Virus record (IMG/VR): IMGVR_UViG_3300048589_001057
Location: 1 to 64,000 of that record
Reading direction: 5' to 3' (one strand)
DNA length: 64,000 nucleotides
From: a virus
The notes beneath the pieces are model-generated. The model made no database searches, was not told where the DNA came from, and saw only the letters and a list, made by a program, of their open reading frames with translations. Numbering within the stretch: the first letter of the stretch is position 1; each line of letters opens with the position of its first letter. A program made the translations under genes and the position numbers. Of the stretch, positions 4,712-63,831 are shown in pieces.

Positions 4712-5710
4712 ATGAAGAACAAAAACTTGAAAGTAATAGCCATTTGTGGGGGAAATGGGGTAATTTGCCACCCATTTAAGAAAAACCTAGTCGCAAATAT
4801 AGAGCCAAGACCTATATTTAAGACTCCCATGAATATCCAATGGACATTGAACTTTGGGGAAATACCCCTATTTAACAAGCTAGAGGCATTTATCAAAGAA
4901 TTCTCTACTAAACCCGAAGTGGACTTAGTAGTTGGCGCTCCTGATTGTGGCCATAGTTCTATCCTATCATACTCAAGGTCAAAGAGTTTACATAATCCAA
5001 GGGATAATTCCAGCCTTACCCTATTTCTACAGGCCACTAAGATGTTTGGGCCAAAGGTATTCATTATGGAAAACCTACCTGCAATGCTTAAGTCAATCTC
5101 TCGCAGTGAGTTACGAGAATACTTTGGGGATTACCGATTGAAATTTATAGAACAGCCGGTGACATTCTGGGGGAATTCTCAAAAAACCAGGATCCGTTTA
5201 CTTATTATAGGGGTAAAGAGAGGATCCGGGTATAGTCTGAAAGATCTGATTGGGGGTATTGAGGATTTCACGCCTAAAACAGCTGGGGAGCTATTGGAAG
5301 GGTTAGTATATGGGGAAAATGGACATTTCCGGGAGGACATAAAAACCAGAATTACCCTGTATGCTGGTAAGAAAATGAGTTTAGAGGATATCCGGGATGA
5401 ATGGCTTAGGAGGGGGGTTTCACGTTGGGAAGTTACTGACCGGAGGTTCTTTACAGCCCCTGGGGTATATCTAAATTTAAAAGACCGTCACCCGGCAACA
5501 GCCCGTAAGGCTAACCGCCAATTCAACCATGAGGGATTGACTATGAGCCCCAGGGAATTAGCCAGAATTCAGGGAGTTCCTGATACTTTTCATATATGGA
5601 TGGATGAGTCCCGGATAGGGTATTGCATAAATAAAGGTAGGACTACAGTGACAAAGACTCCCCCGTATGAAATTGGGCAATGGATTGCTAAGAAATTGGA
5701 CATGGATTAA
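4712..5710 (+). CDS. Divergent C5-cytosine DNA methyltransferase homologue
   Basis: The 332-residue protein keeps the order of C5-methyltransferase motifs. A motif I-like start (VIAICGGNGV) comes first. The motif IV Cys loop is GAPDCGHSS (Cys79), where the classical form is GPPCQGFS. Motif VI is MENLPAM (Glu120-Asn121) and motif VIII is QKTRIRLLIIG (Arg160, Arg162). A C-terminal block LARIQGVPDTFHIW ends in a degenerate motif X (IGQWIAKKL). The family transfers a methyl group from SAM to cytosine C5. Motifs I and IV are unusual, so methylation is likely but not certain; a modified-base-related transferase is an alternative. No cognate restriction enzyme is adjacent, so a protective or epigenetic role is more likely than restriction-modification. 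Confidence 0.75.
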   Translation: MKNKNLKVIAICGGNGVICHPFKKNLVANIEPRPIFKTPMNIQWTLNFGEIPLFNKLEAFIKEFSTKPEVDLVVGAPDCGHSSILSYSRSKSLHNPRDNSSLTLFLQATKMFGPKVFIMENLPAMLKSISRSELREYFGDYRLKFIEQPVTFWGNSQKTRIRLLIIGVKRGSGYSLKDLIGGIEDFTPKTAGELLEGLVYGENGHFREDIKTRITLYAGKKMSLEDIRDEWLRRGVSRWEVTDRRFFTAPGVYLNLKDRHPATARKANRQFNHEGLTMSPRELARIQGVPDTFHIWMDESRIGYCINKGRTTVTKTPPYEIGQWIAKKLDMD

Positions 5711-15942: not shown

Positions 15943-17259
15943 ATGGGAACTATAGGATTAGGTATAAGAGTTGGAAAGGTTCACATTGGCTCAAATGTGA
16001 ACCAATGGTGGTATGGCATTGAATTTGACGAAACAGCAGCAGCAAGCACCATGACACGCATCGCAAGCAGTGAAGATGCAATGTCTTTACATGCAAGTTT
16101 ACCTATACAATCAAGGCAAAGAAGATGTATACTAAGCAATGCAGGAATAGTACAATATTACTTAGATAATAATGATAGCACTAAGAAAGCAGATGGTAGT
16201 GCAGCAGCATTAGATGGTTCGGCAGGTCATGTCATGGTTGAGATACCTCAATTTTATTATAAAATCGAGCGATCAGGAAATATAGCAAGAATGAAAATCA
16301 GTGATTATAACTTACCTGATTTTACATTTAGTCCTAAAATGTACCTGGGCGCTTTCGAGGGGGCAGTTAAGCGCTCAACATCTCAGCTCATGAGCGTAAT
16401 TAACGCAACTGCTGACTTTCGGGGCGGCAATAACAACGCCTCTTGGGATGCTCAGCCCAACAGCCTGCTTGGCAAACCAGCCACTGCAATCAGCCTTACA
16501 AACTTTCGCGCATTTGCCCACAATAACGGGTCAAAATGGTCTGCAAGGTCATACATGTCTCGCGCAAAGATGAACATGCTCTATATGGTTGAGTATGCAA
16601 ACAGGCACGTTCAGGCGGCTTACAATGAGGCTTTGACAGCACAGGGGTATAAGCAAGGCGGGCTTGGAGACGGCGTTTCAAACGTTAACGGTACAAACTG
16701 GGGTACCTTTTCAGGCTACTATCCGTTTGTTCCATGCGGCAGAACCACTGCGCTAGGCAATAAGTCAGGCTTTGTTAACTACGTAGTTGCAGGATTCACC
16801 GGTGGTGATATTACCGTCCCGGTGCCAACATACCGCGGAGTTGAGCACCCTTATGGGCACATTTGGGAATGGGAGGACGGAATACTATATAACATTCAGG
16901 CTAATGATGCAGGCGGGCAATCTCAGGTATTTATATGTGATAACCCCGCAAATTATGCCGATGTACTCACAAACTACAGGCAGGTTGGCTTGCTCCCACG
17001 AAATGAAGGTTACATAACCAGGTGTCTGCTTGATGAGGGGCTTACAATTCCAACTGAGGCGACCGGAGGCAGCTCAACAACGCGCTACTCGGATTATTTC
17101 TATACATCAATACCCGGCTCTGGTAGTGCTATTAGAGGGTCTCTGGTGTCTGCGAATGCGAGTGCTGGCGCGGATGCGGGCCTCTTTTGCCTGAATACGC
17201 TTCACGTTCCGGCGAAGACGAATGCGACCTTCGGGTCTCGGCCTTGCTTCATTCCGTAG
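15943..17259 (+). CDS. DGR target protein (C-type-lectin-like variable receptor-binding protein)
   Basis: The 438-residue protein resembles the diversified proteins of gut Bacteroidales DGRs that I recall. Conserved blocks include WWYGIEFD, LPIQS, a VEIPQFYYK segment, FRGGNNNASWD, a GGLG-x-GV motif, GYYPFVPCG and GHIWEWEDG. The C-terminal lectin fold has GGSSTTRYSDYF before the variable segment. Residues 398-435 are encoded by the VR. Relative to the TR, 12 residues differ: 400, 407, 408, 411, 416, 420, 421, 425, 429, 430, 433 and 435. The role is probably ligand binding at a fibre tip. Base and codon use after about 16000 are richer in GCG/CGC than the neighbours, suggesting recent acquisition. 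It follows the 93-residue gene by one base. Confidence 0.9.
   Translation: MGTIGLGIRVGKVHIGSNVNQWWYGIEFDETAAASTMTRIASSEDAMSLHASLPIQSRQRRCILSNAGIVQYYLDNNDSTKKADGSAAALDGSAGHVMVEIPQFYYKIERSGNIARMKISDYNLPDFTFSPKMYLGAFEGAVKRSTSQLMSVINATADFRGGNNNASWDAQPNSLLGKPATAISLTNFRAFAHNNGSKWSARSYMSRAKMNMLYMVEYANRHVQAAYNEALTAQGYKQGGLGDGVSNVNGTNWGTFSGYYPFVPCGRTTALGNKSGFVNYVVAGFTGGDITVPVPTYRGVEHPYGHIWEWEDGILYNIQANDAGGQSQVFICDNPANYADVLTNYRQVGLLPRNEGYITRCLLDEGLTIPTEATGGSSTTRYSDYFYTSIPGSGSAIRGSLVSANASAGADAGLFCLNTLHVPAKTNATFGSRPCFIP
17135..17249 (+). repeat. DGR variable repeat (VR)
   Basis: This is the 115-bp 3' end of the target gene. It aligns without gaps to 17336-17450, with 100 of 115 bases identical. Fourteen of the 15 differences fall where the template has A (template positions 17342, 17363, 17365, 17366, 17374, 17390, 17401, 17402, 17404, 17429, 17431, 17441, 17445, 17446). 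The only other difference is T to G at template 17418. Identity ends abruptly at both edges. Confidence 0.95.
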
Positions 17260-17335
17260 AACGAGGCGCGATCGCCGAAGGCCGAAAAACGGAGCACGGG
17301 GCGATTTTAGTTCTTTGATTAAGGTTGTAGTTGGT

Positions 17336-17450
17336 GAGGGTATCTGGTGTCTGCGAATGCGAATAATGGCGCGAATGCGGGCCTCTTTTACCTGAATACG
17401 AATAACGTTCCGGCGAATACGAATGCGAACATCGGGTCTCAGCCAAGCTT
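17336..17450 (+). repeat. DGR template repeat (TR)
   Basis: This is the non-coding template copy, 86 bp after the VR ends. Read in the VR frame it is rich in AAT/AAC and TAT/TAC codons (Asn, Tyr), the usual design that lets adenine mutagenesis sample many residues without stops. It has 29 adenines; 14 are substituted in the present VR. The reverse transcriptase start follows at 17564. Confidence 0.95.
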
Positions 17451-17563
17451 TTTAATTAATTGATTTCACCGACTAAACCCTGCCACTTGGCAAAAAATGA
17501 CAATTTTAAACCGCTTTATGGTAGTCACATGGCGAAGTATAGCGGCTTAACAGAAGCAAAACT

Positions 17564-17638
17564 ATGAAACGAATTTCACATCTGTACGAAAAATTATGCA
17601 GCATGGATAACCTCATCCTGGCTGATGCTAATGCTTAA
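17564..17638 (+). pseudogene. N-terminal remnant of DGR reverse transcriptase (24 codons)
   Basis: ATG 17564 to TAA 17636-17638 encodes 24 residues starting MKRISHLYEKLCSMDNL and ending ILADANA. This resembles the conserved N-terminus I recall for Bacteroidales DGR reverse transcriptases (M-K-R-x-x-x-L-Y-E-K-x-C-S-x-x-N-L-x-L-A-D). It sits exactly where the enzyme gene should be, after the TR. The reading stops after LADANA, and a membrane-protein gene starts at 17642. The catalytic palm, with its YMDD-type box, is absent here and from the rest of the window. Probable deletion remnant. Confidence 0.8.
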
Positions 17639-17641
17639 AAC

Positions 17642-33725: not shown

Positions 33726-35415
33726 CAACCCTTGGGTAGGCTACCTCGATAGGTCCTTTTCAAATATCAAAGCCTCCGTACTTAAGCGACTCCGGGTATT
33801 AGCCCCAGAGATTACTGACTACTCAGAAAGTAACCCCCTGGTTATCCTAGTAAGTATTTTTTCTGGCATTACCGAAATGCTAAATTACTACATTGATAGC
33901 CAAGCCAGGGAAGTATTCTTGGCAACTGCCAGAAAGTTTGATTCCCTTATTAAACTGTCCAGGCTGGTAAATTACAGGATAAAAGCCAGTATATCGGCTT
34001 CAGTAGATTTAACCTTCACCACTTATGATAGTGATGGAGAAACTATAGTAGTTAATTCTACTCCCATAGTAATACCCATGAACACAGCCATAGCCACTTC
34101 CTCTGGGATTCAATACCTTACAACTAGAGAAGCTAAGATACTTCCTGGATTCTTTAATGTATCGGTCCCAGCAAGGCAAAGAGTAATTCATGGTATAACC
34201 AGTTTAGGGGTATCTACCGGTGCTGCAGATCAACAAATAGCCTTACCATTAGACTTTGAAGATGGGACTCTATATGTACAGGTTGGAGGCGTAACCTGGG
34301 ACTACAAAGAACATTTCGGGTTTTCATTACCAACCTCCCAACACTTCACGGTTATCATAGGGTTATCATATTCCCCATACTTATTGTTTGGGGATAATAT
34401 TCATGGGGCTATCCCAACAGCTGGAGCCACTATAGAAATCGCCTACCGGTCCACATCTGGTATTCGGGGTAGAGTACCGGCTCAGACATTAACTGAGATA
34501 GTTAGTACCTTAACCATCCCCTCGGGGGAGACCCAGATAGCTGAGATAGGGGTAACGAATATAAATGCCTCTGCTAGTGGCCTAGATGTTGAGTCTACTG
34601 AGTTACTCCGGAAGTCAATACCATTATCTATACGTACCTTGGACAGGGCAGTAACAGAACAAGATTATAATGATATTGCCAAGCTAGCACCTTCAGTGGA
34701 TAAAGCTAAAGTCTTTTTCAACTGTGGTAAGAAAGTAAAAATATATGTTGCCCCAATTGGTGGTGGTATAGCTTCGCTCCCTATGATGGCAGATATACTA
34801 GCTTTTATGAATGTAAGGAAGATGATCACTACTTTCATTGATATCCAAGCTGCCGGGGAAACTTATATTGGCATGGATATAGTGGCTACTTCTAGGTTTA
34901 GGATTAACACTCAGCTGACTGTATTGGATATGCAAAAAGCCTTGGTGGATGCCTACTCATCAGTTAATTCGGATATAAATAAGGCTATAAGAATATCCGA
35001 TATATATGCCTTACTCGATAATTTAGAGAGGGTAGATTACCTACAATTGGTAAACATATATTGGGTACCTTATGCTAGGCCTTATGATAGTGATCTTCAA
35101 CTAGATTGGGATAGAAAAACTTTACTTGGTTCTACCACTAAAATACTATGGCAATTGGTATACAATGGGTCAACCTTCCAATTATTCAGGGCTGGAGTAT
35201 TCATCACAGCTATAGCCATTGGAGTTCAGTACACCCACGAGAATTTACTGGAGATAACAATTAATTCATTACCTGCAGGAATAGCCTCAGGTAATAGATG
35301 GACTTTTTATACTTACCCTGTAAATCAGGATTTACAATTGGATGACTACACTGTCCCCAGGGTTTCTCCAGATTTACAATACATTGACATTTTAGTTAAC
35401 GAAGGAAATGGTTAA
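33715..35415 (+). CDS. Baseplate wedge protein gpJ/gp6-like
   Basis: The 566-residue protein shows the Baseplate_J organisation: an N-terminal helical region (LVILVSIFSGITEMLNYYID, then EVFLATARKFDSLIKLSRLV), a beta domain with IPMNTAIATSSGIQYLT, and the diagnostic stretch TIEIAYRSTSGIRGRVPAQT followed by GLDVESTELLRKSIPLSIRT and TEQDYNDIAKLAPSV. It makes the ring of wedges around the hub. Its last eight bases overlap the gpI-like receptor protein gene. Confidence 0.85.
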   Translation: MNINNPWVGYLDRSFSNIKASVLKRLRVLAPEITDYSESNPLVILVSIFSGITEMLNYYIDSQAREVFLATARKFDSLIKLSRLVNYRIKASISASVDLTFTTYDSDGETIVVNSTPIVIPMNTAIATSSGIQYLTTREAKILPGFFNVSVPARQRVIHGITSLGVSTGAADQQIALPLDFEDGTLYVQVGGVTWDYKEHFGFSLPTSQHFTVIIGLSYSPYLLFGDNIHGAIPTAGATIEIAYRSTSGIRGRVPAQTLTEIVSTLTIPSGETQIAEIGVTNINASASGLDVESTELLRKSIPLSIRTLDRAVTEQDYNDIAKLAPSVDKAKVFFNCGKKVKIYVAPIGGGIASLPMMADILAFMNVRKMITTFIDIQAAGETYIGMDIVATSRFRINTQLTVLDMQKALVDAYSSVNSDINKAIRISDIYALLDNLERVDYLQLVNIYWVPYARPYDSDLQLDWDRKTLLGSTTKILWQLVYNGSTFQLFRAGVFITAIAIGVQYTHENLLEITINSLPAGIASGNRWTFYTYPVNQDLQLDDYTVPRVSPDLQYIDILVNEGNG

Positions 35416-38188
35416 TTTTCAGGATTGGATATTTGAACAATTACCAGCTAGGTTTAAAGCCGAAGATACTTATGTGATTGGAGGTAAAGGTCTATTTCAG
35501 AGGTTCATAGAAGCTCATGGCTATTACCTTGATACCTATGTAACTCCAAAGATTGATAGCTTACTAGATTTGAATGATGTTATCACTACAGATTCAGCCT
35601 ACCTTGCATATATAGCTTGGTTTCTGGGTAATCCTCCAGATACCATTTACAATGAGGAACATTACCGCAGGTTACTAAGGTATATCATGGATATCAATAA
35701 GGTAAAGGGCACAGCTTTAGGCTATGAACTTTTCTTCCGTATCATGGGTATAGAGGTTACAGTTAATGAATTATCAGCTGATGGTTCTACATATGACTCG
35801 GGCCTTATTTATGATGATGGCCATTATTATGATAATAATTGCCCTCCATGTTCTGGCTATACCCTGGATATAGTTGACCCCAATGGTATTCTTGCTGACT
35901 TAGATACTGACCCTTTAATAACAGCTATGTTCTGGGCCATCATAAAATATCTTGAACCCATTAACGCCAGGCTAATCTCCTGGACTTACGGTAGTGGAAA
36001 TGAGCCTTTTTTAGCTACCTTAAGGATTGGGGAATACTATACTACTTCTCCCATAACAATAGGGAATAGCTCATATACCTACTACGATGAGGAATATAAT
36101 GAATTAACTTTACCTATGGAGGGAACCATAGATTGGGGTGACGGTTCTCCCGAGGAAGAATTAACTCCTTATATCTCCCACCAATACACTGAAGAGGGGG
36201 ATTTCCAGATAGCCATAAGGGGCCTTTGTCCACAGCTGGGAAGTACTCCCCAGATGCGTGATTGCCTGATAAGTGTTGATGATTTTGGGGATGTGGGTTT
36301 TAGGCAACTAGACTTTTCTGGATGCTATCTATTAGCTACTATCCCTAATCAAGCTGGGAAGTTGAAAGAAGCAGAATACCTAGCGGGTTTATTCGCTTGG
36401 TGCGAAGCTTTAGTAGGCCCAATTCCCGTGGGATTATTCCAGGGTTCTACTAAAGTACAAAACGGCCATGCTATTTTTTGGGGTTGCTCTAGTCTAACCG
36501 GAACTATCCCAGCTGACTTATTTAAAGATATGCCCTTATTGAATGATGCCCTTAATATGTTCTCTTTTTGTTCTAGTTTAACTGGTAGTATACCTGAAGA
36601 TTTGTTTAGGTATAATCCCTTAATCGTGTCATTTCCTGAAGCTTTCTCTGGTTGTTCTGGTTTAACTGGTTCTATACCTGCTGATTTGTTTAGATATAAT
36701 ACCTTAGTGGGAGATTCTGCATTTACTGGTACCTTCTATGGTTGTTCAGGTCTAACTGGCTCTATACCTGCTGATCTGTTTAGATATAATACATTAGCTA
36801 GGAGTATGAATGCCACTTTCTACGGCTGTTCAGGTTTAACCGGGAGTATACCTGAAGACCTCTTTAGGTATACTACTCAAATACAGGATTACCCTTTTTA
36901 TATCTTAGATGGGGATTATCACTATGCCGCCGGTTTCGCCGCCACTTTCCACGGCTGTTCAGGTTTAACGGGGAGTATACCAGTGGGGTTATTTAGATAT
37001 AATACTCTAGTAAATGTTCTAGCATTTTATGGTACATTCAATGGCTGTTCTGGTTTAACTGGTTCTATTCCAGTTGACTTATTCAGATATAATACCGGGG
37101 CTTCCCTTTGGGCGTTCAGGGAAACTTTTTCTGGGTGCTCAAGTTTAACTGGGGCTATACCTGAAGACTTATTCCTATATAATACTCTGGCTAGTGAATA
37201 TGGCTTTGCCAATACCTTCTATGGGTGCTCAAGTTTAACTGGGGCTATACCTGAGGGCTTATTTACGGCTAATACCCTAGTAAGTAATTGGGGTTTTTAT
37301 AGTACCTTCTATGGGTGCTCAAGTTTAACTGGGGGTATACCTGAAGGTCTGTTTAGGTATAATACCTTAGTAAGTGCTAATGGTTTTAGCCAAACTTTCA
37401 TGAACTGTAGTGGTTTAACTGGCTCTATACCTACTGACCTCTTTAGATATAATGTAAAAGCTGCGGCTAATGCTTTTCAGAGTACATTCCGGACTTGCTC
37501 AGGGTTAACAGGCTCAATCCCAGAAACTTTATTTAAAGACTGCACCTTAGCTAGTTCTGCGGCATTTCACACTACATTCCATGGCTGTTCTGGTTTAACT
37601 GGTAGTATCCCTGAAGACCTATTTAGGTATAACCCTCTTGGTACTGTTAGGGCATTCCATAGTACATTTTCCAGTTGTACTGGTTTAACAGGTTCTATAC
37701 CAGAAGGCCTCTTTAGGTATAATACTGGGGTATCTGCCGATGGGTTTAGAGAAACCTTCTATGGTTGTACTGGTTTAACAGGAACTATACCAGCTGACTT
37801 ATTTAGGTATAATACTCAGGTTAGTACTGGTGGCTTCTACCGAACTTTCTATGGTTGTACAGGTTTAACAGAGGCAGCTAATGGGTTATTTTATTATAAC
37901 TATTTGGTCACTTCTTTCTTTGGGGTCTTCAATGGATGTACTTCTCTCAAATTAAATTCAAACGTCTTTTTCCCACCAGGCCAAGAAAGTGTTTTCTTCT
38001 TGGGACGGGCGATGAACTTCTCTAATATGGTAAACCGGAGCACTTACTCTGGTGCCCCAGGGGTAGCCCCAGCATTATGGAATTGTTCCTTTAACCAAAC
38101 TATCATCACTACCGGCTGCTATGGTGGGGATGGTAACAACTCAACTTCCTTATCCAATTACGGTGACATCCCAGTGGGGTGGAAATAA
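35408..38188 (+). CDS. Tail protein I-like anchor fused to a BspA-like leucine-rich repeat domain
   Basis: The 926-residue protein has four parts. Residues 1-130 resemble P2 gpI/tail protein I (IFEQLPARFKAEDTYVIGG...FLGNPPDTIY...KGTALGYELFFRIMGIE), which anchors fibres to the wedge. At 200-275 there is a PKD-like beta domain (IDWGDGSPEEELTPYISHQYTE). Residues 320-870 hold about 16 repeats of the form F-x-x-C-S-G-L-T-G-S-I-P-x-D-L-F-R-Y-N, a degenerate BspA-like LRR (DUF285-type) with roughly 30 residues each. A short cap ends the chain. The repeat domain is probably the host-binding surface. The repeats are very similar at DNA level and therefore recombination-prone. Confidence 0.8.
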   Translation: MVNFQDWIFEQLPARFKAEDTYVIGGKGLFQRFIEAHGYYLDTYVTPKIDSLLDLNDVITTDSAYLAYIAWFLGNPPDTIYNEEHYRRLLRYIMDINKVKGTALGYELFFRIMGIEVTVNELSADGSTYDSGLIYDDGHYYDNNCPPCSGYTLDIVDPNGILADLDTDPLITAMFWAIIKYLEPINARLISWTYGSGNEPFLATLRIGEYYTTSPITIGNSSYTYYDEEYNELTLPMEGTIDWGDGSPEEELTPYISHQYTEEGDFQIAIRGLCPQLGSTPQMRDCLISVDDFGDVGFRQLDFSGCYLLATIPNQAGKLKEAEYLAGLFAWCEALVGPIPVGLFQGSTKVQNGHAIFWGCSSLTGTIPADLFKDMPLLNDALNMFSFCSSLTGSIPEDLFRYNPLIVSFPEAFSGCSGLTGSIPADLFRYNTLVGDSAFTGTFYGCSGLTGSIPADLFRYNTLARSMNATFYGCSGLTGSIPEDLFRYTTQIQDYPFYILDGDYHYAAGFAATFHGCSGLTGSIPVGLFRYNTLVNVLAFYGTFNGCSGLTGSIPVDLFRYNTGASLWAFRETFSGCSSLTGAIPEDLFLYNTLASEYGFANTFYGCSSLTGAIPEGLFTANTLVSNWGFYSTFYGCSSLTGGIPEGLFRYNTLVSANGFSQTFMNCSGLTGSIPTDLFRYNVKAAANAFQSTFRTCSGLTGSIPETLFKDCTLASSAAFHTTFHGCSGLTGSIPEDLFRYNPLGTVRAFHSTFSSCTGLTGSIPEGLFRYNTGVSADGFRETFYGCTGLTGTIPADLFRYNTQVSTGGFYRTFYGCTGLTEAANGLFYYNYLVTSFFGVFNGCTSLKLNSNVFFPPGQESVFFLGRAMNFSNMVNRSTYSGAPGVAPALWNCSFNQTIITTGCYGGDGNNSTSLSNYGDIPVGWK

Positions 38189-52644: not shown

Positions 52645-54855
52645 ATGGCTAAGAAGTCAAAAAAGGGGGGTATTTTATCCCCCTTACAAATCCAGAAAAA
52701 ATACCCTGGTTCTGGTATAGCTACATCTATAGCCATACCATCCCTGGACACTCTTTGGATCCCCTCTCGGTGCTTACCCCTTAATTATGCCACTGGTGGG
52801 GGTATCCCCTACGGTAAAATCCTAGAAATCTATGGCCAGGAAAGCTCGGGTAAAACTCTAGCCGCTTTAGACTTTGGGTCGGTAGTTCAGGCTTTGGGTG
52901 GGGAGATTATGTACAATGATGCAGAGATGGCATTCACTATTGACTGGGCTATAAAAAATGGCCTAGACCCCAATAAAATACACCTTTACCCAGAAACTTC
53001 GGTGGAACTAATATCCGACTGGATAATGGATACAGCCATATCCATTAGGGCTAGGTTAGTAAAAAATGAGCCAATACTATTCATCCAAGATTCCATTGCC
53101 GCTTTAGATTGTATGGCCAATATCAATTCTTCCCAGACTGATTCCAAAGCTGAGATGGGTAATAGGGCTAAAGCTATCTATAAAATGGTAAGGATTAGGA
53201 ATCAAATGCTGGCTGAGATGGGAGTAACCTCAATTTTTATAAACCAGATAAGAAGTAATATCAAAGCCTCTACAAGCCGGTTCTCTGGGGTCGACCCCGA
53301 CTGCCTCCACTACAATACCCTAGTCCATCTTGTGGACGGTAGAACTTTACCCATTGGGGAAATCGTAAGGGGGAAAATTGCCGGTGAGGTTTGGAGTTAT
53401 AATGAAACTACTTTATCCGTAGAACCCAAGCCTATCATCGGCTGGGTGGAAAAAGAGAAGCTTGAACCCGGAGAAAAATGGCTATCCATCGTAACCAATG
53501 GGCCTGGAAGTAAAGGGGGGAAATTTGGTATTGTCTGTACGGAAAAACACGGTATATTCACTGCTTTTAAGGGTTGGGTTAATGCCCGAGATTTAAAGGT
53601 TGGGGATATGGTATTAACCTATGCCCCCTATAAAATCAATGGTACCCTCAGGGACTTCTTAGAGGGCTCGGCGATAGGGGATTCTTCCATTAGAGTAAGG
53701 GATACCAGTACGGCTAGGTATAGGCTACAAGATTCAGAACAGCCAGAATACCTACAGTGGAAGTTGAATTTACTATCCGAACATTACTCTTTTAAAGCCG
53801 AATACGATAGTCAATTGAATATCCGGTTTACCACTGATTACTCTACGGAGTGGGCTATCTTCGGGGCAAAATTCCCTAATCGTAATCCCTCAGCTTTATT
53901 CTGTAATACCCCTAATGCCTTAACCATGGCAGTTTGGTATATGGATGATGGACATCTATCCGACTCAGGGATTATAAGCATAGCCATATCCCCAAAGAGA
54001 GTTGACTTGCAGGAATTGGCGGAATGGTTGTCGGGGTATGGGTATATATGTAAACCCTATAAAAAGGGGATAAGGTTTAGTAATGACGGGGGTAAAAGAT
54101 TACACCGGCTTATTGCTAAATACGTCCCTGAATGCATGGCCCATAAACTTAAACCCGAATATCAGGGAATGCATGAGCCATTTGGGTTAACCTGCCACCC
54201 AGAAATTACCCCCCTACCCACTAAAGTGGTAAGTATCAATGGGGCTGGGGAAAGGCATTACCGGAAACTCCATAAGTACGACCTTACTATCCAAGATAAC
54301 CATAGCTTCTTCGCTGGCAGTGTTGGCCCAGGTTTCCTGGTACATAACACTACCCCTGGGGGTCAAGCCATGAAGTTTTTTGCCAGTATTAGGTTGGGTA
54401 TATATGCTGGTAGACAAATTAAGGAGAAGGTAGGGGGTTATGAAGACCGAGTGGGATCTGAAACTTCAGTAAGGGTTAAGAAGAATAAGGTAGCTCCCCC
54501 AAAGCCAACTTTTAAAGCCAAGATGTATTTTAATCCTGACTATGAGGCTAAGCCTCTTGGATTTGACAGGTATTTTGGATTAGGGGAATTACTTATTCGA
54601 ACTAATGTACTAAGCCGTAAGCCAAATAGCAGTATGATATACCTGGATGGTACTTTGATTGCCAGAGGTGAAAAGAGCTTAGATTTAAAACTGGCTAAAG
54701 ATGCTAAATTACGTAGAGCTTTGATAAAGGCTTCATCGATTAATACCGTATCCAAAACACGGAATAAACTCAATGGGTTATCCCATAATTTATACCCAGT
54801 AAAAACCAAGAAGTTCATCTCCCAATTAAATGATGAGGAAAATGAAGATGAGTAA
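52645..54855 (+). CDS. recA: RecA-family recombinase interrupted by an intein
   Basis: The 736-residue precursor contains a RecA of 387 residues when the intein is removed. The N-extein (1-219) has IYGQESSGKTLAALD (Walker A), LFIQDSIAALD (Walker B) and SIFINQIRS (L1). The C-extein (569-736) starts TTPGGQAMKFFASIRLGI, the RecA L2-adjacent motif. The insertion is at residue 220, directly before this Thr, a site in the DNA-binding region where inteins commonly occur. RecA pairs homologous strands for repair and recombination-dependent replication. The basic, acidic-ended C-terminus (QLNDEENEDE) is typical. Confidence 0.9.
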   Translation: MAKKSKKGGILSPLQIQKKYPGSGIATSIAIPSLDTLWIPSRCLPLNYATGGGIPYGKILEIYGQESSGKTLAALDFGSVVQALGGEIMYNDAEMAFTIDWAIKNGLDPNKIHLYPETSVELISDWIMDTAISIRARLVKNEPILFIQDSIAALDCMANINSSQTDSKAEMGNRAKAIYKMVRIRNQMLAEMGVTSIFINQIRSNIKASTSRFSGVDPDCLHYNTLVHLVDGRTLPIGEIVRGKIAGEVWSYNETTLSVEPKPIIGWVEKEKLEPGEKWLSIVTNGPGSKGGKFGIVCTEKHGIFTAFKGWVNARDLKVGDMVLTYAPYKINGTLRDFLEGSAIGDSSIRVRDTSTARYRLQDSEQPEYLQWKLNLLSEHYSFKAEYDSQLNIRFTTDYSTEWAIFGAKFPNRNPSALFCNTPNALTMAVWYMDDGHLSDSGIISIAISPKRVDLQELAEWLSGYGYICKPYKKGIRFSNDGGKRLHRLIAKYVPECMAHKLKPEYQGMHEPFGLTCHPEITPLPTKVVSINGAGERHYRKLHKYDLTIQDNHSFFAGSVGPGFLVHNTTPGGQAMKFFASIRLGIYAGRQIKEKVGGYEDRVGSETSVRVKKNKVAPPKPTFKAKMYFNPDYEAKPLGFDRYFGLGELLIRTNVLSRKPNSSMIYLDGTLIARGEKSLDLKLAKDAKLRRALIKASSINTVSKTRNKLNGLSHNLYPVKTKKFISQLNDEENEDE
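53302..54348 (+). mobile_element. Intein with LAGLIDADG-type homing endonuclease (in RecA)
   Basis: Residues 220-568 of the recombinase precursor form the intein. It starts with Cys220 and block A (CLHYNTLVHLVDGRTLPIGE). Block B has the T-x-x-H element (CTEKHGIFTA). Endonuclease motifs are degenerate LAGLIDADG helices LEGSAIGDSSIR and VWYMDDGHLSDSG. The C-terminal blocks are YDLTIQDNHSFFAGS and FLVHN. The last residues His-Asn and the following extein Thr complete a standard splicing site. All splicing residues look present, so it is probably active. The element moves by homing into intein-free recA alleles. Confidence 0.9.
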
Positions 54856-63219: not shown

Positions 63220-63831
63220 ATGAACTTAACAAAAAAAACCATTGCCGAACAAGAAGACCTTAAAACAGGTTTTTTTAAATTAACTTTCACAGATGGCTCT
63301 TCCATCATTTGCCTCATAGCCTTGGCTGAAGAGGAGGAGGAAGAAGAGGAAGAAGTTCCGGCCAAAGCCAAAGCCAAAGCTCCTAAGGATGAGGATGAAG
63401 TCCCAGCCAAATCCAAAGCCAAAGCCAAAGCTCCTAAGGATGAGGATGAGGAAGAAGAGGAAGAAGAAGAGGATGAGGATGAGGATGAGGAAGAAGAGGA
63501 AGAAGAAGAGGATGAGGAAGAAGAGGAAGAAGAAGAGGAAGAAGAAGAGGATGAGGAGGATGAAGAAGAGGAAGAGGATGAAGAAGAAGAGGAGGAAGAA
63601 GAAGAGGAGGAAGAAGAAGAAGAGGAAGAAGAAGAAGAAGAGGATGAGGATATAACTTGGGATGATCTCAAAGGTATGGACTCTGATGAGCTCGAGGATA
63701 TCATTGATGAAGAAGATCTCTCAGTTGATCCCGAAGATTACGAGGATGATGAGGATGGCTTAAGGAAAGCTGTAGCTAAGGCTATGAAAATTGAGATTCC
63801 TGCCAAAAAGGCAAAAAAATCTAAAAAATAA
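63220..63831 (+). CDS. Glu/Asp-rich acidic protein with basic end (203 aa)
   Basis: The start is placed at ATG 63220, because the in-frame upstream ATG (63157) lies inside the previous gene and before the leader motif. The first 35 residues look like a small beta domain (IAEQEDLKTGFFKLTFTDGS). An Ala/Lys-Pro-like spacer repeat (KAKAKAPKDEDE) follows, and then a nearly uninterrupted Glu/Asp tract at about residues 70-145. The last 50 residues are acidic but structured (WDDLKGMDSDELEDIIDEED), and the end is basic (KKAKKSKK). Polyacidic proteins can mimic DNA or act as histone-like or chaperone proteins. The codon-level repeat of GAG/GAA/GAT is prone to slippage. Function unknown. Confidence 0.65.
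   Translation: MNLTKKTIAEQEDLKTGFFKLTFTDGSSIICLIALAEEEEEEEEEVPAKAKAKAPKDEDEVPAKSKAKAKAPKDEDEEEEEEEEDEDEDEEEEEEEEDEEEEEEEEEEEEDEEDEEEEEDEEEEEEEEEEEEEEEEEEEEEDEDITWDDLKGMDSDELEDIIDEEDLSVDPEDYEDDEDGLRKAVAKAMKIEIPAKKAKKSKK

Follow-up and report, generated by a model that had tools for sequence, protein, structure and literature searches.

The locus described here raises the question of how a phage came to carry the target gene and the template of a diversity-generating retroelement (DGR) without the reverse transcriptase (RT), and whether its target can still be diversified. The window, the whole stretch of DNA analyzed, covers 64,000 nucleotides (positions 1 to 64,000 of the 80,518-bp IMG/VR record IMGVR_UViG_3300048589_001057) of a contractile-tailed, myovirus-like phage with genes for a terminase, portal, head protease, major head protein, tail sheath, tape measure, and baseplate wedge. 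Replication genes included those for a family A DNA polymerase, DnaB-like helicase, primase, and DNA ligase. The homologues found for the DGR target and the RT suggest Bacteroidota as the host group. Other parts of the window contained a C5-cytosine DNA methyltransferase-like gene (4712-5710), two 90-bp repeat arrays (37132-37871) within a 926-aa gene of the tail/baseplate region (35408-38188), a RecA/UvsX-like recombinase split by an intein with a LAGLIDADG endonuclease domain (52645-54855), and a long GAA/GAGGAA repeat encoding an acidic Glu-rich stretch (63437-63650). Features of the DGR locus are collected in Table 1.

Table 1. Features at the DGR locus (window coordinates)
Feature	Position	Strand	Remarks
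Fibre-like gene upstream of target, 1219 aa	11997..15656	+	Right-handed beta-helix, Pfam PF13229, E = 9.5e-7
DGR target, tail protein, 438 aa	15943..17259	+	phrog_5302, PHROG E = 2.6e-108
Imported tract, 1.3 kb	16331..17634	+	Target's last 308 residues, VR, spacer, TR, RT-17 RNA, and first 71 nt of RT
Variable repeat (VR)	17135..17249	+	3' end of target gene
IMH-like VR 3' end, CGGGTCTCGGCCTTGCTT	17232..17249	+	Constant in homologous VRs; TR (IMH*) differs
Inverted repeat TCGGCCTT (17238-17245) / AAGGCCGA (17278-17285)	17238..17285	+	Flanks VR end and stop codon
Template repeat (TR)	17336..17450	+	Core, 17343-17434, same as in L033 and L003
RT-associated structured RNA, Rfam RT-17 (RF03020)	17476..17563	+	Full model length; abuts RT start codon at 17564
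Truncated RT, 24 codons MKRISHLYEKLCSMDNLILADANA, then TAA	17564..17638	+	First 71 nt as in L033 RT; homology ends at 17634
Next gene, 121 aa	17642..18007	+	Starts 3 nt past stop codon of RT remnant

Pairwise alignment of the two repeats was ungapped over 115 bp and contained 15 differences, 14 of which lay at the 29 adenines of the TR (Fisher test, P = 2.8e-9); the sole exception was TR T17418, which corresponded to VR G17217. These counts, and the 12 target residues changed by the differences (residues 400-435), agreed on recount with those in a preliminary description of this DNA, and the pair is the VR/TR of a DGR. No further VR copy was found in the 80.5-kb record, in which the next best match reached 44% at non-A sites. 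Three adenine differences at the 3' end (17240, 17244, and 17245) fell within the IMH/IMH* zone, and because the VRs of all compared relatives read CGGCCTTGC at this end and the TRs CAGCCA(A/T)GC, these differences look fixed between IMH and IMH* rather than produced by mutagenesis. At VR 17141/TR 17342, the window TR had an A, with C in every other TR and every VR; since this A is unique to the window phage, the simplest account is a mutation of its own TR. After this refinement, the core held 10 adenine-mutated positions and the one T-to-G change (P = 2.5e-6). When six homologous VR/TR pairs were compared, TR adenines accounted for 85 of the 86 differences in the core (A to T, 38; A to C, 27; A to G, 20), which strongly supports the earlier proposal that the VR arose by adenine-mutagenic retrohoming. 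The three non-A polymorphisms among the TRs were matched by the VR in every genome, showing concerted VR/TR evolution in homologous cassettes.

A DGR requires a reverse transcriptase, the absence of which here had gone unmentioned in the preliminary description. The PF00078 profile matched no RT in the whole 80,518-bp record, with control genomes positive, and the full-length RT of a related contig (L001), used as a query against the whole record, matched through its residues 1-26 at 17564-17641 and nowhere else. No second RT was present in the record; the remnant sits directly after an intact RT-17 RNA. Exact direct repeats of 127 bp, a length like that of an assembler k-mer overlap, stand at the two ends of the record. 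They fit a complete circular genome, which the record probably is, and make it improbable that an RT lies just past a contig end. The adenine-focused VR/TR of a complete autonomous DGR was present and its encoded RT was not; a target with VR and a TR were kept and the RT was deleted, as in partial, RT-less phage DGRs.

The closest relative of the cassette was L033, a prophage-like region with an intact RT on the Bacteroidota MAG contig WSXX01000009.1, which lies in an unrelated phage and adjoins a chromosomal gene reading as UvrC. Window positions 16336 to 17634 were 90.3% identical to this locus, with 0/92 differences in the TR core, 0/114 in the post-TR RNA, 1/85 in the spacer, and 105/799 in the target body; the 5' end of the RT was identical at 71/71 positions. 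The two loci were alike in the C-terminal domain of the target, IMH, TR, RT-17 RNA, and RT 5' end, whereas L033 differed in having a full 331-aa RT and a target fused to a beta-helix (1069 aa). No Pfam matches were found for two donor genes downstream of the RT. The C-terminus of the target was also shared with four IMG/VR contigs, L001 to L004 (79-81% at the amino acid level), which were 82-84% identical in nucleotides to the window across the shared tract. An intact 331-aa RT occupied the same place in L001, L002, and L004 as in L033, and the cassette order in these three contigs was target-VR-TR-RNA-RT. L003, like the window phage, was without a full RT: a separate internal deletion with a TGCA junction (11547-11600 in L003 versus 11547-12542 in L001) left the C-terminal 27 aa of the RT and kept the TR and VR, of which 18/18 core differences were at adenines. 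This deletion is independent of the RT loss in the window phage.

GC content was 37% at 15943-16330, 51% at 16331-17256, and 37% again after 17641, and a 1300-bp stretch starting near 16350 had the highest GC content in the whole 64 kb. Nucleotide similarity to L033 turned high at about 16331, and homology ended at 17634. The GC jump at 16331 and the loss of homology at 17635 mark the ends of an imported 1.3-kb tract, most simply brought in by a recombination that replaced the last 308 residues of the tail protein and ended 71 nt into the RT. For the phage backbone around the DGR locus, the search yielded no close relative. In IMG/VR, there were no relatives of the 121-aa, 364-aa, and beta-helix genes, no homologue of the 121-aa gene was detected, and in the flanks examined for relatives of the MCP (47-61%), neither the target nor the RT had a match. 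The imported tract means that a hypervariable domain can be transferred, along with its template, from one phage to an unrelated one.

In DGRs the VR lies at the 3' end of a ligand-binding gene, usually one for a C-type lectin; here it lay at the 3' end of a tail gene. The target had no Pfam or PDB sequence match, and two AlphaFold models of it were poor (pLDDT, 48 and 44) and were not used for a fold search. Its family, phrog_5302, is common to crAss-like phages, and crAss-like homologues of the target were found; because this is a phage tail family, a receptor-binding role is likely. The upstream 1219-aa beta-helix gene was 31-33% identical to the N-terminal part of the targets in L013, L015, and L033, and the donor phages have a related beta-helix joined to their DGR target.

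Contigs L001 and L002, from different metagenomes, differed at 9 positions in 14,307 bp, all of them in the VR and all at TR adenines; their TRs were identical, so that a constant TR and a variable VR were seen between near-identical contigs. Together with the adenine focus of the six pairs and their mirrored polymorphisms, these VR changes indicate that this DGR type is active where the RT is intact. Among the six pairs, non-A core VR/TR discordance occurred in the window phage alone, in which private changes at TR 17342 (C to A) and VR 17217 (T to G) break concordance. These two sites hint at a VR that may not have been rewritten recently, as would be expected once retrohoming had stopped, and from them we infer that diversification is arrested in this phage. 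Against arrest, the T-to-G change in the VR could be a retrohoming error, and the site at TR 17342 could reflect an A-to-C mutation after the change in the TR. L003, in which the RT is also deleted, had no non-A VR/TR discordance, which counts against the arrest signature. Just one private change was found in 17250-17634, so either the RT was lost very recently or function is still kept. The preliminary description had named tropism switching as the likely role of the locus; self-driven switching is supported only in part, and that this phage switches tropism in this way now is not supported, given the missing RT and the two discordances.

The sequences that an RT would act upon were retained. 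In five aligned genomes, the VR 3' end was constant, with TR-specific differences, as for IMH and IMH*. The arms of the inverted repeat at the VR end were the same in L033 and L004 and shorter in L001. The repeat may be an analogue of the hairpin/cruciform that efficient homing needs after the IMH in BPP-1 (PMC3240598). The RT-17 match in the window scored 36.4 bits (E = 9.2e-5), just below the gathering threshold of 40.4, and the element was found at the same place in L033, L001, L003, and L004 (33.9-36.4 bits). Consensus RNA folding of the cassette sequences gave no covariation because the sequences were too alike.

Taken together, these observations are best explained by a captured and arrested RT-less DGR, which a related RT might reactivate in trans (probability of about 0.66). 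Recombination with a Bacteroidota (pro)phage having an intact DGR would have replaced the part of the tail gene that encodes its C-terminal, presumably receptor-binding, region; the same event would have brought in the VR, IMH, TR, and RT-associated RNA, ending 71 nt into the RT. Adenine-mutagenic retrohoming from a TR of this type had produced the present VR beforehand, and diversification would have stopped after truncation of the RT, barring an RT supplied in trans. Diversification might resume if an L033-type RT were present in the cell and recognized the RNA, TR, and IMH that the phage has kept; because the TR core of L033 is identical and supply in trans works in BPP-1, reactivation in a suitable lysogen is plausible. 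The phage alone is probably frozen and could be diversified only if a co-resident virus supplied the RT.

A second explanation, unlikely though a serious candidate, is that the cassette is diversified in trans, with the RT of a co-resident L033-like prophage recognizing the TR RNA and IMH of the phage. The TR core and post-TR RNA are the same as in the RT-bearing L033 prophage, the RT-17 element is retained with the same score, and the donor type resides as a prophage next to the UvrC-like gene on a bacterial contig. In BPP-1 with the cassette deleted, avd, TR, and brt supplied in trans restore tropism switching (PMC3240598). However, recent rewriting of the VR seems unlikely in view of the two private discordances, and a comparison of the L033 MAG with one segment of the phage (20000-39900) gave no match. 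The wider proposal that non-autonomous DGRs are retroelement satellites, spreading with swaps of receptor-binding domains and diversified in trans by the RTs of co-resident prophages, is doubtful. It is improbable that the RT-minus form is a minor form or a consensus artifact, with RT-positive siblings in the sample and an assembly that took the deleted path. In its favor, the record is a metagenomic assembly and RT deletions do arise in this DGR family, as seen in L003. Against it, the junction with the next gene is clean, no RT fragment lies elsewhere in the record, and GC content and homology end at one border; the L003 junction shares TGCA only, probably too little sequence for an assembly error of the usual de Bruijn kind. 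Ordinary gene duplication and drift, with an adenine bias arising by chance, is untenable in view of the Fisher test and the 85 of 86 differences at adenines in the six pairs.

LoVEphage was considered as a case of a trans-acting RT and rejected, since programmed frameshifting has been published for Quimbyvirus (PMC8008677). The RT match of LoVEphage was split in both of the records that were checked, and the same 816-bp RT coding sequence was annotated in all six. In the BI-TP1, PV4-TP1, and LoVEphage records (L010 and L058-L062), VRs were hypervariable at TR adenines and TRs were identical; two frameshifts were seen in the DGR RT of BI-TP1.

A probably complete genome with an intact template RNA, a target, and a homing site, and no enzyme, raises a question that can be tested: whether phages discard the mutator to lock in a good receptor-binding variant or borrow it from prophages. 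If the satellite proposal were true, the mutagenesis machinery of one prophage would diversify the tail of another phage. No report of natural use of a DGR RT in trans was found in the open-access literature searched. Because the DGR surveys consulted take the RT gene as their entry point, they miss half cassettes of this kind.

RT-less DGRs are already known, including in phages. Some epsilon crAss-like phages have a deleted or fragmented DGR RT (PMC11054128), Nanoarchaeota contain partial DGRs that have no RT (PMC4372165), and a cyanobacterium has been described with a VR remnant but no RT (PMC7517822). What is new here is a half cassette carried from one phage lineage to another, its template RNA intact and its RT cut at the border, together with a second, independent RT deletion in L003. 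The window phage resembles BPP-1 in the adenine-specific VR/TR divergence in a tail gene and in the IMH/IMH* differences, whereas BPP-1 has brt and avd and the window phage is without an RT. It resembles the Epsilonunovirus crAss-like phages (PMC11054128) in having a tail protein DGR from which the RT has been lost; in Epsilonunovirus, however, the loss has been reported within a phage genus, whereas the window phage imported half a cassette across lineages, cut at the border of the tract.
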